From positions 3,564-35,971 of the forward strand of contig MGJI01000022.1 of NCBI GenBank assembly GCA_001794195.1: a stretch of 32,408 nucleotides of DNA, read 5' to 3'. The position numbers and the translations under genes were made by a program. Source of the stretch: Candidatus Yanofskybacteria bacterium RIFCSPHIGHO2_01_FULL_44_17. GTDB lineage: Bacteria; Patescibacteriota; Minisyncoccia; 2-02-FULL-40-12; IGHO2-01-FULL-4-A. Below, one piece after another: positions 699 to 27,878 of this stretch (the first letter of the stretch is position 1; every line of letters begins with the position of its first letter). The notes beneath the pieces were generated by a model. The model saw nothing but the letters and a program-made list of their open reading frames with translations. It had not been told where the DNA came from and searched no databases.

Positions 699-917
699 CT
701 TGCCATTTTTCTTACAACATCATGTCTTCCTACAAATATATGCAAAGCTCGCTAAATTGTCGGACACAGACCAGTTCTCCGTTTGCCGCTAGAAAACTTC
801 GTCATTTCATTCCTCGTTTTCTACGCGTTTTCCGACTAGTCCTAGTGTTGCCCGACAATTCTTAACGCTTGCTTTGCTAATTTGTCAGTCGACAGATGAA
901 TGACGAAAAACGGCAAG
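699..917 (-). ncRNA. Copy 1 of a repeated, highly structured ~210-nt element (candidate structured RNA; strand tentative)
   Basis: About 200-nt similarity to 10829-11037. Nested helices 699-704/912-917, 706-711/905-910, 718-726/891-898, 732-737/880-885, 742-748/871-877, 755-763/852-860, 769-775/835-841, 790-797/816-823, with compensatory changes relative to copy 2. Confidence 0.75.
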
Positions 918-3002: not shown

Positions 3003-4280
3003 TTATTTTAAAAGTTCTTCTACGACTTCCTTGTCAGACCAAGAAATCTTGCGGTCTCCGGCAATTGCCATTGAGGTCTCAGATCCCTTGCCTGTTATAA
3101 CCATATTATCACCTTCTTTTGCTAACGTCAAGGCATGTTTAATCGCCTCGCGACGGTCAAGAATCTTTTCATGTTTTTGTGCCTCCGGGAATCCTTTTTC
3201 AATTTGTTCTAAAATCAAAAGCGGATTCTCTTCATATGGGTCCTCATTGGTCAAAATAATTTCATCACAATATTTCGCGGCGATTTTGCCGAATTCTGGT
3301 CTTTTCCATTTATCTCTGCCGCCACCGGCAGCGCCGAGTACGCAAATCAGCTTAGGTTTTAGGTTATAGATGTTAGGTTTTAGACTATTTTTCAATGTTT
3401 CATAAACAAGCCTTAGCGAGTCAGGCGTATGCGCATAGTCGACTACCACGCTGAAACCCATGTTTGAACTAATTACTTCCATTCTACCGGGAATTAGCTC
3501 TATTGAGTTGAGCGTCTCTACTGCCCTGTCCATATCCAGATTATAGGCATGCGCCACTGCCAAAGCCGCCAAGGCGTTAAATTTATTAAACTCTCCCAGA
3601 AGTTTTAAATTGAGATCTGTAACTGGTGATTGGCTATTGGCCAAAGATATAACTCCCCATTTCTGACCGTAAGTAATTTTATGCTTAGCCGGAAAATTGG
3701 CAAACTTCTCAAAATATTGATCGTCAATATTTAATACGTGGATCCCGCGCGTTTTCAAAAAAAGCTTCTGTTTGGCCGCCATATAATTCTCAAACGAGCC
3801 GTGGCTCTCCAGGTGCTCGCGATGTAAATTAGTATAAACCGCGCAATCAATTTTTACTCCGGCAAGCCTCTGCTGAGTAATGCCTTCCGATGTGGCCTCG
3901 AGCACAATAAACCTAACGCCCGCCTTTTTAGCCCGCCACAAGAATTTCTGTAGTTTCATCCTCCCGGGCAAGGTCATTTTCAAGGTGTTGGGCCAAGTTT
4001 TATCTTTTATCTTATAGCCCAACGAGCCCACTGCCGCTATCGGTAATCCCTGATCTTCAAAAATCTTACTTATCATGTAAACCGTAGTTGATTTTCCCTT
4101 GGTGCCGGTAACGGCAATCACTCGCATTCCACGTGATGGTAAAGCAAAAATCACCGCCCCAAATATTCCCAACCCCCAATGATAAATCGGCTGAGCAGCC
4201 CGGAAAATTCGCCGAGGTATTATTTTGCGGCCTAAATTAAGTAATGCGCTTAACGCTTTATTTTCTATAAACATTAACAT
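3003..4280 (-). CDS. murE: Mur ligase family protein, MurE-like
   Basis: VIAVTGTKGKSTT P-loop, EATSEGITQQRL, TNLHREHLESHGSFENY, VVDYAHTPDSL, GKGSE motifs. Substrate specificity uncertain. Confidence 0.85.
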   Translation of the reverse strand: MLMFIENKALSALLNLGRKIIPRRIFRAAQPIYHWGLGIFGAVIFALPSRGMRVIAVTGTKGKSTTVYMISKIFEDQGLPIAAVGSLGYKIKDKTWPNTLKMTLPGRMKLQKFLWRAKKAGVRFIVLEATSEGITQQRLAGVKIDCAVYTNLHREHLESHGSFENYMAAKQKLFLKTRGIHVLNIDDQYFEKFANFPAKHKITYGQKWGVISLANSQSPVTDLNLKLLGEFNKFNALAALAVAHAYNLDMDRAVETLNSIELIPGRMEVISSNMGFSVVVDYAHTPDSLRLVYETLKNSLKPNIYNLKPKLICVLGAAGGGRDKWKRPEFGKIAAKYCDEIILTNEDPYEENPLLILEQIEKGFPEAQKHEKILDRREAIKHALTLAKEGDNMVITGKGSETSMAIAGDRKISWSDKEVVEELLK

Positions 4281-9734: not shown

Positions 9735-10820
9735 TCAGGAGCGTTCGGCGACATTTACCGCAATGCCCAGTCCAGCAAGTATTGATACCAGCGAAGAACT
9801 TCCAAAACTTATAAACGGTAGCGGCAAACCCGTAAGAGGAATTAAGCCTGAGATGGCGGCAATATTAATAATGGCCTGCCCAGATATCCAAACCGCTATA
9901 CCCAAGACTACCATGCGACCAAAGGGATTGACGGCCTTAGCAATCCCGGCCAATGTCAGTGAAAGTGCCAAAAACAAACCAAGCAAGAAAATCGCACCGA
10001 TGAAGCCAAGCTCTTCAACTACAATCGCAAAAATAGAGTCCCCCACCGGTTCCGGCAAATAGTTAAATTTCTGACGGCTCTGACCAAACCCCAATCCAAA
10101 TAGTCCGCCCGAACCAATACCCAACATGGCCTGATTGACATGGTATGATATGCCCTGCTTATCTACATTCGGATTCAAATAAGCCTTCAATCTATCAAAT
10201 CGATACGGCTCTATAACTGCTAACGCTCCCAATAAAATACCGAGCACTAAAATCAGTACCAAAAAGTGGCTTAGTTTAACTCCGGCGAAGAAATACATTG
10301 AAAGAGCAATAATACTTACCAGCACCAATGTACCCATATCTGGCTGTAACAAAAGCAGGCCTCCGATAAAAGTCATGACTACAAAAAACGGAATTGCCGA
10401 GCCGGGACCGACATCAATATGGCCGTCGCGCCGGCTAAACCAAGCAGCCAAATAAATTATCAATGTTAACTTCAAAATTTCTGACGGCTGAAAAGTAAAC
10501 AACCCGAAATCCACCCAACGCTGCGCCCCTCTGAGCCCATAGCCTACACCAGGCACAAAAACGAGAACCAATAGCCCGACCACCGCAACCAGCAGGGGCA
10601 AAGCCATTTTTTTCCAAAATTTATAATTTATTTTTGAAAAAAGAAAAAAGAGGGCAAGGCCTGGCAAAACTCCATAGAGAAGCTGGTGTATAAAATAATA
10701 ATAGGACGAGCCGAAACGCTTCTGGCCATCCACGATACCGGCAGACGAAAGTATAACCAAGCCAAAAACAATTAGAATAAAAACTAATATGCTTAGGGTT
10801 TTGCCGGATTTAGACATCAC
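9735..10820 (-). CDS. ftsW: FtsW/RodA/SpoVE (SEDS) family protein, probably FtsW
   Basis: LVILSSAG...; GYGLRGAQRWVDFGLFTFQPSEILKL; LLLQPDMGT; PEPVGDSIFAIVVEELGFIGA; TGLPLPFISFGSSS. Confidence 0.93.
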   Translation of the reverse strand: MMSKSGKTLSILVFILIVFGLVILSSAGIVDGQKRFGSSYYYFIHQLLYGVLPGLALFFLFSKINYKFWKKMALPLLVAVVGLLVLVFVPGVGYGLRGAQRWVDFGLFTFQPSEILKLTLIIYLAAWFSRRDGHIDVGPGSAIPFFVVMTFIGGLLLLQPDMGTLVLVSIIALSMYFFAGVKLSHFLVLILVLGILLGALAVIEPYRFDRLKAYLNPNVDKQGISYHVNQAMLGIGSGGLFGLGFGQSRQKFNYLPEPVGDSIFAIVVEELGFIGAIFLLGLFLALSLTLAGIAKAVNPFGRMVVLGIAVWISGQAIINIAAISGLIPLTGLPLPFISFGSSSLVSILAGLGIAVNVAERS

Positions 10821-10828
10821 ATCGCCCC

Positions 10829-11037
10829 TTAATTTTTCTTACAACATCATGCCTTCCTACAAATTACGCAGAATTCGCTAAATTGTTGGACACAGACCAG
10901 TTCTCCGTTTACCGCTAGAAAGCTTCGCTTAACCGCTCGCTTTCTGCGCGTTTTCCGACTAGTCTTAGTGTTACCCAACAATTCTAAACGCTCATTCTGC
11001 TAATTTGTTAGTCGGCAGATGAATGACGAAAAATTAA
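10829..11037 (-). ncRNA. Copy 2 of the repeated structured element (candidate structured RNA; strand tentative)
   Basis: Same nested helices as 699-917: 10829-10838/11028-11037, 10845-10853/11014-11021, 10859-10874/10994-11008, 10881-10889/10975-10983, 10917-10923/10939-10945. Confidence 0.75.
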
Positions 11038-11241
11038 AGATCTCAGTATGGCCGTTTCAAGAGATTGACCCTTACTATCTTAAATTTTACGCCAAAACTC
11101 ATGTTTATGAAAATGGCTGAAATAAAAAATTGCCTTGCGACAATTAAAAAAAGCTTCCTAAAGAGCCAGGCTTAATTTTAGTAATCAATCTGCCCACTAA
11201 GTCCAGAGTGTTATTCACAAGCTTCCTTCGATAAAAACTAA

Positions 11242-12315
11242 TTACCCAAGTAACGGTGGCAGTTTACTATCTACTAGAAATATAATCAACCCAATAATAG
11301 CTCCTATGGCGGAAATCATCCAGAAACGCATGGTCACTTGCGTCTCATGCCAGCCCCTGGCTTCAAAGTGGTGATGAATTGGCGTAGAAAGAAAAATTTT
11401 CTTGTGGCGTAGTTTTTTGGAGACTAGTTGTAAGATAACAGACCCGGATTCAATTATAAAAATCACTCCGATTGGTATCAGTAAAAATGGTGTGTTGGTT
11501 AGCATCGCAATAATACCGAGCACCACGCCAAGCGACATTGAGCCGGTATCACCCATAAAAAATTTGGCTGGAAAAATATTAAACCACAAAAACGCAATCA
11601 AGGCACCGATAATGGCAGCGATAAACGTAACCAAGTCCATTCTACCTTGGTCAAAAGCAATCGCACCATAAGCTGCAAACATTGTAAGGAATACTCCGGC
11701 CGCTAAACCATCCAACCCGTCTGTTTCATTCGCCGAAAAAGCCGATGCGACAATTACAAAAATAAAGAATGGGATATACCACCAACCGACAGCAAAATCA
11801 CCGAGAAATGGCACGTTTATTGAATTAAAATCCAGCTTGAAATAAAACCACCAGGCACCACCGGCAGCAACGACAATATAGAGCAACAGCCTATCGCGCA
11901 TACGCAGGCCGCCACCGCGAGGCCCCTTACGGAACACGCCCATTAAGTCATCGGCTAGACCAAAAATCGCCGCCACAATCAAAGCCCCAAGGGGCAGCCA
12001 CGTCTGGCCACGAGAGAAAAAGTTAACCCGCGACCAAAATCCGTCTGCAGTGCTGTGCAAATACCAAAAGACAAGGGCCAGCAGAGTAACCGTGATCCAG
12101 ATTATGACGCCGCCCATTGTCGGAGTGCCTTCTTTCTTTTTGTGAAGCTCATGAAAAATTGGCGCACTCTCGATGGAGCGAAGCTGCTTACCTAGCTTAT
12201 ATTTATGCAAAATCTTATTCCAAATTGGCGTCAACACAATGGCCACAAAAAAACCCAGTGCTGCCAGCACGAATATGCGAACCACGTTGAATACCGTGAA
12301 AAGACTTTCGGCCAT
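11242..12315 (-). CDS. mraY: Phospho-N-acetylmuramoyl-pentapeptide-transferase
   Basis: HKKKEGTPTMGGVIIW; NETDGLDGLAAG; FMGDTGSMSLG; STPIHHHFEARGWHETQV. Confidence 0.95.
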   Translation of the reverse strand: MAESLFTVFNVVRIFVLAALGFFVAIVLTPIWNKILHKYKLGKQLRSIESAPIFHELHKKKEGTPTMGGVIIWITVTLLALVFWYLHSTADGFWSRVNFFSRGQTWLPLGALIVAAIFGLADDLMGVFRKGPRGGGLRMRDRLLLYIVVAAGGAWWFYFKLDFNSINVPFLGDFAVGWWYIPFFIFVIVASAFSANETDGLDGLAAGVFLTMFAAYGAIAFDQGRMDLVTFIAAIIGALIAFLWFNIFPAKFFMGDTGSMSLGVVLGIIAMLTNTPFLLIPIGVIFIIESGSVILQLVSKKLRHKKIFLSTPIHHHFEARGWHETQVTMRFWMISAIGAIIGLIIFLVDSKLPPLLG

Positions 12316-16968: not shown

Positions 16969-18678
16969 CTATTCTTCTTTTTTACCTAAAGTTTCATCCA
17001 ATATCCTGCGCAACCCCTCAACATCTGCTTCAACTTTAGCTCTGGGTGGCTTGGCTTGCCCTGAACCTGTTGAATGGGACTTAAGCGGACGACCGCGAAA
17101 ATCAACCGGTCCGCGTCCAGCAGCCTCAGAAAAAGACAGCGGCTTACTTGCGTAACTGGTAGACTGAGTGATACCTGATCTTACGGGCGCCGGCGATTCG
17201 TATCTAATAGGAGCTGCCCCTTGATTGCTATTCTGAGTAGGCGGCCTACCGGAGGGCCTGTCAAACCTTGACCCATCCCTACCCGTCGATCTGTCAAAAC
17301 GCTCTTCGAACCCATAGCCTCCGCCTTGATCCTGTCTGGACTGGCCAAAACCACCCCGACGAGGCGAAAAAGAATCATCAGCGCCAGAAGCAGCGACAGT
17401 AAGCTCTCGCCATTTTAAAATCGCGTCTTCTATATCTTTACGAGCCTTGGCATAGGTAGCTCGAGAGAACTCTATAACTTGCTCTCTGGGGCTTATCGGC
17501 GGCGGCGCAATGGTATCCATTGTTGTGGCCGAAAAAGACCTGGAAGAAACACCGTCAATCATTAATTTCAAGTATATTTGTCGTTTACCAAGATTAACGA
17601 TGTCGGTCGCCATAAACTCCGGCGACATTTCCTTTTCAAGCAGTTCCGCATCTTCGGCACCGACACGGAAGGACACAATTGTTCCAACATTACCAAAAAC
17701 TGCATCCCTTACACCCTCTTCCATCTGAGTAACATATTGATGGGCAATGACCAGGCTTAAATTGAATTTTCTAGCCTCTGACAAAATATTAGCGAAAGAA
17801 GCTGTCGCAAAATTTTGAAACTCGTCAACAATAAGAACAAAATCCTTCCTTTCTGCCCTGGGAATATCAACACGAGACATGGCGGCTATTTGAATCTTGG
17901 TAATCAATAAGCCGCCGAGCAGTCTTGAGGCATCTTCTCCGACTCTGCCCTTAGAAATATTAATAAGCAATATCTTTTGTTCGTCCATTGCTTGTCTTAT
18001 GTCAAAACTGGACTTCTTCTGACCGACTATATTCCTAATAACCACGTTAGAAACAAACTGTCCGATCTTATTTTGAATGGCGGCAGTAGCGTCCATGCGA
18101 TACTTAGGATCCCATTTTTCAAATTCTTGCGTCCAAAAAGCCTTACACTCCGGATCTTTGATTTGTCCAACCACCCATTTCCGATACTCCTTCTCCGCCA
18201 TCATGCGGTTAATTCCAAGCAAGGTTGAATCCGGCACCTCTAAAAGGGCCAAGATAGTATAGTTGAGAATATACTCCATTCTGGCCGACCAAAGATCTAT
18301 CCAAAGCTTCTTAAAAACTGCCATGATACCATCGGCCACAAGGTGCCTCTTGTCTGGGTCGACGGACTCTAAAACATTAAACGCTATCGGATATTCCAAG
18401 TCGGCAGGGTTAACGTAAATAACGTCCTTAATTCTTTCCGGCGGAATATAGTCAAGCAGATCCTCCACCGGATCTCCATGCGGATCAACAAAGGCTAACC
18501 CACGACCATCTCGAATATCCTGAATGGCAATGTTTTTAAGAAGCTCTGATTTGCCCATGCCGGTCTTACCGATGATATACATATGGCGCCGACGATCATC
18601 CATCTTGATGCCAAAAGTCACCTTCTTGTTTCGAAAGTTGGTTTCACCAAATAAAACTACTGGGTTTTCTGCAGACAT
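16969..18678 (-). CDS. VirD4/TraG/HerA-like P-loop ATPase with disordered C-terminal tail
   Basis: YIIGKTGMGKSELLKNIAIQDI; FVDPHGDPVEDLLDYIP; VLIVDEFQNFATASFANILSEARKFNLSLVIAHQY; G/R/S/P-rich C-terminus. Confidence 0.9.
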   Translation of the reverse strand: MSAENPVVLFGETNFRNKKVTFGIKMDDRRRHMYIIGKTGMGKSELLKNIAIQDIRDGRGLAFVDPHGDPVEDLLDYIPPERIKDVIYVNPADLEYPIAFNVLESVDPDKRHLVADGIMAVFKKLWIDLWSARMEYILNYTILALLEVPDSTLLGINRMMAEKEYRKWVVGQIKDPECKAFWTQEFEKWDPKYRMDATAAIQNKIGQFVSNVVIRNIVGQKKSSFDIRQAMDEQKILLINISKGRVGEDASRLLGGLLITKIQIAAMSRVDIPRAERKDFVLIVDEFQNFATASFANILSEARKFNLSLVIAHQYVTQMEEGVRDAVFGNVGTIVSFRVGAEDAELLEKEMSPEFMATDIVNLGKRQIYLKLMIDGVSSRSFSATTMDTIAPPPISPREQVIEFSRATYAKARKDIEDAILKWRELTVAASGADDSFSPRRGGFGQSRQDQGGGYGFEERFDRSTGRDGSRFDRPSGRPPTQNSNQGAAPIRYESPAPVRSGITQSTSYASKPLSFSEAAGRGPVDFRGRPLKSHSTGSGQAKPPRAKVEADVEGLRRILDETLGKKEE

Positions 18679-18679
18679 A

Positions 18680-18748
18680 GGTTTTAGGTTTTAGGTTTTA
18701 GGTTTTAGGACTTTAATCTAACACCTAAAACCCAACACCTATCACCTA
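18680..18748. repeat. Heptamer tandem repeat (GGTTTTA)x4 followed by inverted heptamers (ACACCTA/AAACCCA/ACACCTA/TCACCTA)
   Basis: Directly visible in the intergenic region between the ATPase and its upstream gene. Confidence 0.9.
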
Positions 18749-27207: not shown

Positions 27208-27270
27208 AAGCAATAGTTGATATGACCTCAGTATATAATTAATTCTGCCGAAAAGCTAATAACTAATTTT

Positions 27271-27306
27271 TGTCGCTCCTAGATACGATCGTATTTAAAA
27301 GCGACA
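27271..27306. repeat. Imperfect palindrome 3' of the Cas2/PaaX-like gene
   Basis: TGTCGCTCCTAGATACGATCGTATTTAAAAGCGACA; shares ATACGATCGTAT core and GTCG/CGAC ends with 27837-27878. Confidence 0.9.
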
Positions 27307-27825
27307 TTAGCTAAAATATCTTTTGACAGCTGCCTCTCTCCCGCCCAAAGACTCCGCGACAACAACACAGACGTACTTACTAATCGCCAATAACCTTACC
27401 AACTCTTCAATGTCTTTCTCACAGGCATAACAAGTTACATAAACACTCTTTTGCAGTTGGTAGCATTCCCACTCATTCAGTTTGCTGCGAAGTAAGTCTC
27501 TGGCAGCCCTCTTTTCTTCCGGAATATCAAAAATAATTACGCGCCACCGACCGTCACGTTTTTTATTTTCTATTTTAAGTTCCTCCAGTTTGGCAAAATT
27601 GATATATTTATATCCCTTCTCCGTAATAACTGCTTCGACCCCATTTGAATACTTGATAAAACCACGTCGCTTTAGTGCGTAAAGTTTGCGACTAAGAACA
27701 GTTTTATTCGGAAAAAGTTTAGATCTTATTAGGTTTTGCTTAAATGTACTTTTAGGCAAACCACCATAAAGTCGGCGTTCAATGGCATCAAGAATACCGT
27801 AATTTGGATATTTGCTGTACCTCAT
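27307..27825 (-). CDS. HTH protein with Cas2/PaaX C-terminal-like ferredoxin-fold domain
   Basis: N-term winged-helix-like (TVLSRKLYALKRRGFIKYSNGVEAVITEKGYKYI); C-term GRWRVIIFDIPEEKRAARDLLRSKLNEWECYQLQKSVYVTCYACEKDIEELVRLL, Cas2-like pattern. Confidence 0.8.
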   Translation of the reverse strand: MRYSKYPNYGILDAIERRLYGGLPKSTFKQNLIRSKLFPNKTVLSRKLYALKRRGFIKYSNGVEAVITEKGYKYINFAKLEELKIENKKRDGRWRVIIFDIPEEKRAARDLLRSKLNEWECYQLQKSVYVTCYACEKDIEELVRLLAISKYVCVVVAESLGGREAAVKRYFS

Positions 27826-27836
27826 TAAATCTCACG

Positions 27837-27878
27837 ATTTGTCGTCTTTAAATACGATCGTATTTAAAGACGACAAAT
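27837..27878. promoter_or_regulatory. Perfect 42-nt palindrome 5' of the Cas2/PaaX-like gene (candidate operator)
   Basis: ATTTGTCGTCTTTAAATACGATCGTATTTAAAGACGACAAAT is its own reverse complement. Confidence 0.9.

Follow-up and report, generated by a model that had tools for sequence, protein, structure and literature searches.

Two copies of a rod-like element at the locus

The window, i.e. the whole 32,408-nucleotide (nt) stretch of contig MGJI01000022.1 from Candidatus Yanofskybacteria bacterium RIFCSPHIGHO2_01_FULL_44_17 (phylum Patescibacteriota) analysed here, contains two copies of a structured element, hereafter the rod element, which belongs to a dispersed, multi-copy family of rods of approximately 200–300 nt. 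A previous sequence-only reading had described the two copies as a single element that folds end to end, with differences in the stems being compensated. Both are indeed where they were reported, 86% identical to each other, and every listed compensation that was checked is present in the sequence. For example, the inner stem GCAAAGC/GCTTTGC of copy 1 corresponds to GCAGAAT/ATTCTGC in copy 2, and the outer stem CTTGCC/GGCAAG to TTAA/TTAA. End-to-end folding was likewise borne out, with the minus strands reaching −87.6 kcal/mol (copy 1; z −10.0 against dinucleotide shuffles) and −86.7 kcal/mol (copy 2; z −9.3), compared with −66.1 and −68.0 kcal/mol (z −7.2 and −8.6) for the respective plus strands. 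The parts of the two copies and the genes next to copy 2 are as follows.

706..910, minus strand: rod element copy 1, subfamily A, ring version R2a; the folded strand is the minus strand
699..705, no strand: left arm (CTTGCC + A) of the inverted repeat flanking copy 1
911..917, no strand: right arm (CGGCAAG) of the inverted repeat flanking copy 1
752..864, minus strand: core A of copy 1, the portion that is conserved across families; it matches the covariance model at 104 bits
779..787, plus strand: conserved internal-loop half of copy 1, CCGTTTGCC, reading GGCAAACGG on the folded minus strand
827..834, plus strand: conserved internal-loop half of copy 1, GTTTTCCG, reading CGGAAAAC on the folded minus strand
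10833..11033, minus strand: rod element copy 2, between mraY and ftsW/rodA
10824..10832, no strand: left-flank arm (CCCTTAA) of the inverted repeat flanking copy 2
11034..11042, no strand: right-flank arm (TTAAAG) of the inverted repeat flanking copy 2
10878..10987, minus strand: core A of copy 2, matching the covariance model at 112 bits
10905..10913, plus strand: conserved loop half of copy 2, CCGTTTACC
10950..10957, plus strand: conserved loop half of copy 2, GTTTTCCG
11242–12315, minus strand: mraY, neighbour of copy 2
9735–10820, minus strand: ftsW/rodA, neighbour of copy 2

The 3' end of copy 2 on the minus strand adjoins a Shine–Dalgarno-like AAGGGG preceding the start of ftsW.

A dispersed family held together by its fold

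The two copies turned out to be only part of the picture, as the genome to which the window belongs (674 kb) harbours four full copies and three congeneric genomes contain 7, 11 and 12 matching places. The 28 copies or fragments from the genus fall into two cores with common ends, namely core A (~200 nt, with the loops TTCTCCGTTTRCCG and CGCGTTTTCCG) and core B (~160–190 nt, with the loop GGTTATCCATTCC). Around the core, the rings exist in versions in which both arms change together, e.g. CATCATGYC/GRCAGATG versus CATATCCC/GGGATATG, with the internal loop TTACAA/AATGAC retained. Near copy 1, at positions 1080–1195 of the window, there is also a palindromic module distinct from the rod element (CCGGCGGAGACGAAGGCTTTTTGT...ACAAAAAGACTTCGTGTAGCCGG, here called type C), which has relatives at several gene 3' ends within the genus.

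A DNA-level search beyond the genus yielded no convincing match in other families, and a scan of GTDB genomes for exact patterns found the left end of the element in only two clearly related Candidatus Yanofskybacteria genomes, the remaining matches being scattered and chance-like. In contrast, when 14 core A sequences from the genus, taken in the minus orientation, were used to build a covariance model, homologues from two further families of the order were retrieved, and a second and a third model brought the set to 63 core copies from 17 genomes, with up to 10 copies per genome. The genomes are metagenome assemblies and the covariance-model E-values are rough. The carriers comprise 16 genomes from one order of Patescibacteria (very small bacteria, for the most part uncultured), of which order about 45 genomes were searched, and one genome outside it (G524), whose lone core match (L137) is weak (E 2e-6) and possibly reflects transfer or chance. 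The stems of the distant copies differ strongly in sequence (ACAAAATTTTAGT/ACTAAAATTTTGT; TTTTGGTC/GACCAAA), while the loop CGGAAAAC...GGYAAACGG is retained in them; the near-invariance of the internal loops, noted before from two copies, thus extends to 63 copies from several families.

The paired state of the stems is documented by several alignments. In one of 19 sequences, 96.0% of the cells form standard pairs, 27 of the 34 pairs exhibit two-sided changes, and the covariation score reaches 0.619, compared with 0.219 ± 0.016 for shuffled alignments and no more than 0.13 when the structure is slid. Significance was assessed in the 63-copy alignment, which was fitted to the covariance model, using our own phylogeny-aware G-test modelled on the idea behind R-scape: 16 of the 26 testable pairs are significant, and when all column pairs are considered, nine of the 11 significant ones correspond to annotated pairs. 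Even a structure-free MAFFT alignment has 85.9% of the cells paired, as opposed to no more than 58.5% for slid structures. In the genus-only alignment, covariation is weak (4 of 34 pairs), and it is the family-level set that supplies the strength. The shape and the unpaired loop sequences are kept while the stem sequences change, and it is therefore the fold itself that evolution preserves, with the loops nearly fixed and the stems re-sequenced without loss of pairing.

As the sequence-only reading had supposed, the fold does not correspond to a known class. None of the 4227 Rfam families matches the element in the window at the gathering score, and a relaxed comparison (E up to 1) of twelve loci, eleven of them carrying copies, returned nothing relevant. 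The element has no match in phage and viral collections, and we found no earlier description of it in the open-licence literature.

The minus strand as the probable folded form

The minus strand folds better in 31 of 33 copies. Isolated mismatches provide a second line of evidence: when read on the minus strand, the first set of copies shows 31 G.U against six A.C oppositions (15 against four distinct contexts), ten distant copies show 16 against four, and the distinct contexts in the 63-copy set number 32 against 16 (p 0.015). With G.A and G.G added, the favourable minus-strand mismatches in other genera amount to 40 against 16 unfavourable ones (p 9e-4). These data support the minus strand as the folded form, in agreement with the strand regarded as probable before, and they fit RNA and single-stranded DNA (ssDNA) alike.

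Probable insertion at the centre of other palindromes

Each copy sits at the centre of a locus-specific inverted repeat that extends outward from it. Among the genus copies, the two flanks are complementary in inverted orientation at 8.55 of 12 positions, compared with 4.12 for mismatched flanks, and the complementary sequences differ from locus to locus. The element as a whole constitutes an imperfect inverted repeat with the ends WTTTTC/GAAAAW. No target-site duplication was detected, since direct repeats at the borders (1.32) do not significantly exceed those of mismatched flanks (1.07; p 0.19). At ileS, the outer stem CAAAAATTACAAACC/GGTTTGTAATTTTTG is common to the genomes G003 and G001 and the interiors are wholly different; the same two genomes share an outer stem with a swapped interior at rplU, and a pfkB-like gene is followed by a type A, B or C element across four species. 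Kept outer stems with different interiors imply that the interiors have been exchanged, or inserted, inside kept hairpins. Insertion into intrinsic terminators is not supported as a rule, the ends of the rods being just mildly T-rich (0.32).

Comparison of orthologous sites points in the same direction. Sites occupied in one species are often empty or truncated in its sisters (one arm of the copy L013, for instance, is mostly gone), and at the site upstream of ftsW, G001 lacks a recognisable palindrome and both G002 and G003 carry a different one. The relatives available, at 70–89% gene identity, are too distant for most intergenic empty sites to be aligned. In the tree of copies, the sequences group by genome and not by gene, with the three ileS copies and the two lon copies lying apart, which makes the recurrent places look re-occupied rather than inherited. 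The earlier opposition between a selected RNA structure and a decaying repeat consequently has to be revised: the selected structure stands, and what speaks against the contrast is that amplification within lineages, the emptiness of orthologous sites and the nesting of insertions characterise the same element as a mobile-like dispersed repeat.

One could explain the palindromes without invoking selection if template switching during replication corrected one arm from the other, and this process would account for the locus-specific perfect outer stems, the hairpins within hairpins and the swapped tips. We nevertheless deem it improbable as the general explanation, because it would erase the internal loops, of which CGGAAAAC/GGYAAACGG are nearly invariant, and predicts no strand asymmetry of mismatches, contrary to the bias described above. 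Template switching may still help shape the arms.

A structured element, the lack of a target-site duplication and a palindromic target are all typical of RNA-guided transposon systems, so a derivative of an RNA-guided or RNA-containing transposon (IS110 bridge RNA, IscB/TnpB omega RNA or a group II intron remnant) was considered as well. This origin is highly improbable given that the loops of the element are constant, when guide loops would be expected to vary with the target, that even the relaxed Rfam comparison found no relevant match, and that an IS110 (DEDD) transposase was encountered in none of the 16 carrier genomes tested; an identity with the IS110 bridge RNA was rejected on the last ground.

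Position relative to genes

The gene to the left of the element runs towards it and ends just before it in 46 of the 63 core copies (p 3e-4; neighbours counted on automatic calls of open reading frames (ORFs)), so that the folded strand is usually antisense to that gene. In the genus represented by the window, the orientation of the element relative to genes is mixed. Several genes recur as neighbours, namely ileS (G003, G007 and G013), rpoC (G001 and G011), lon (G002 and G023), recA (G021 and G023) and yifB, with the names checked for the first four and for one yifB. The relation to the downstream gene is not constant, and a riboswitch or leader RNA was ruled out on this basis.

The preference for sites directly past stop codons, the reuse of the same genes across families or genera, and the conservation of the fold and loops across families would all suit an RNA family of the host, either non-coding or structural at 3' ends, that spread by recombination and is useful at the ends of housekeeping genes, where the rod, acting in the transcript, could protect mRNA 3' ends, contribute to termination or serve as antisense RNA towards the gene upstream. 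We regard this as unlikely, considering that the strand which folds better runs antisense to that gene, that copies cluster by genome rather than by locus, that the corresponding sites in sister species are often empty or truncated, and that the orientation is not uniform in the window's genus.

A putative mobile element acting as a folded strand

The explanation that we favour, with about even confidence, is that the rods constitute a non-autonomous, mobile family of nested palindromes in one order of Patescibacteria and that an enzyme acting in trans recognises their folded strand. A single strand in the minus orientation (ssDNA or RNA) would fold into the rod, the enzyme would recognise the paired rod together with its loops and insert it at the tip of a further hairpin, and selection for recognisable folding would keep the stems paired during sequence drift. 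The likeliest enzyme may be a Y1 (HUH) transposase that works on hairpins of ssDNA and resembles REP-associated tyrosine transposases (RAYTs), as enzymes of this class do not duplicate the target site and the hairpin they recognise is strand-specific; no direct link to the rods was found. It is conceivable, if rather doubtful, that the rods represent a new class of mobile elements that propagate in the form of a folded single strand, either RNA or ssDNA, enter hairpin tips, nest at gene 3' ends, and have their identity in loops and shape and not in end sequences.

RAYT-like genes are present in all four congeners and in eight of 10 carrier genera versus seven of 18 non-carrier genera (p 0.04), a weak association at the genus level that does not prove a RAYT to be the mobiliser. 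Several observations weigh against the favoured explanation. Two carrier genera (represented by G007 and G020) lack a RAYT match, a search with the element profile revealed no copy within 1.5 kb of the RAYT genes examined, and these genes are bordered by their own short hairpins unrelated in sequence to the element. Furthermore, no autonomous element with matching ends was seen in the loci examined, and mobility is suggested by comparison rather than by observed events.

The hairpins associated with the RAYT-like genes deserve a brief description of their own. In L080, L081, L082, L083 and L085, a perfect short hairpin (e.g. ACTTAGAGGTTGAGCCTCTAAGT) occurs on both sides of the gene. Several RAYT-like ORFs contain similar hairpins in frame, giving rise to repeated peptides such as QLSGSTTKL ... 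QLSGSTTKL, and a second dispersed hairpin repeat found in frame encodes CTTSQVVH in two different RAYT-adjacent genes (L079).

Comparison with known repeats

Sequence similarity is the usual yardstick for dispersed bacterial palindromes, which are commonly regarded as decaying debris, and the small genomes of Patescibacteria are generally considered poor in such elements. The rod family is kept by its structure over family-level divergence, with fixed loops and free stems, and sequence searches therefore detect it within a genus only. The family is a natural test case for the question of whether selection acts on mobile palindromes in their folded state. Its placement in the middle of other palindromes, with no duplication of the target site, suggests that Patescibacteria have an insertion route about which little is known.

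ERIC/IRU and other palindromes resembling miniature inverted-repeat transposable elements (MITEs), such as Correia/NEMIS, RUP and RPE (reviewed in PMC2229807), are likewise 100–200 bp long, intergenic and dispersed, form a hairpin over their whole length and may affect the neighbouring mRNA. The rod element shares with MITEs terminal inverted repeats and dispersed copies at unrelated loci but differs in lacking a target-site duplication and in being inserted at the centre of another palindrome, and its stems are replaced by compensatory change around fixed loops throughout an order, across families. GTAG-tagged REP/REPIN sequences associated with RAYTs (PMC3733652) resemble it in being palindromic, mostly extragenic and often downstream of genes and in having a strand-specific hairpin, and RAYT-like genes exist in most carrier genera; however, REPs measure 20–40 nt as opposed to 200–300 nt, the rods have no short GTAG- or CGTC-tagged hairpin, and they do not flank the RAYT genes found. 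Integron attC sites also follow genes, fold from the bottom strand and conserve structure above sequence. An attC identity was rejected, since complementary RYYYAAC/GTTRRRY boxes are present in none of the 63 copies, and the rods occur as single sites at housekeeping genes instead of in cassette arrays. Covarying stems with conserved loops are a feature shared with the structured RNAs of Rfam, none of which the rod matches.

Two further repeats were noted in the window. Near-identical palindromes, TACGATCGTATTTAAA, at positions 27269–27306 and 27838–27877 flank a gene for a 172-aa PaaX/Cas2-like protein (27307–27825, minus strand), of which they are perhaps the operators. Finally, short arrays of the unit TAGGTTT(T) occupy positions 3353–3383 and 18678–18722.
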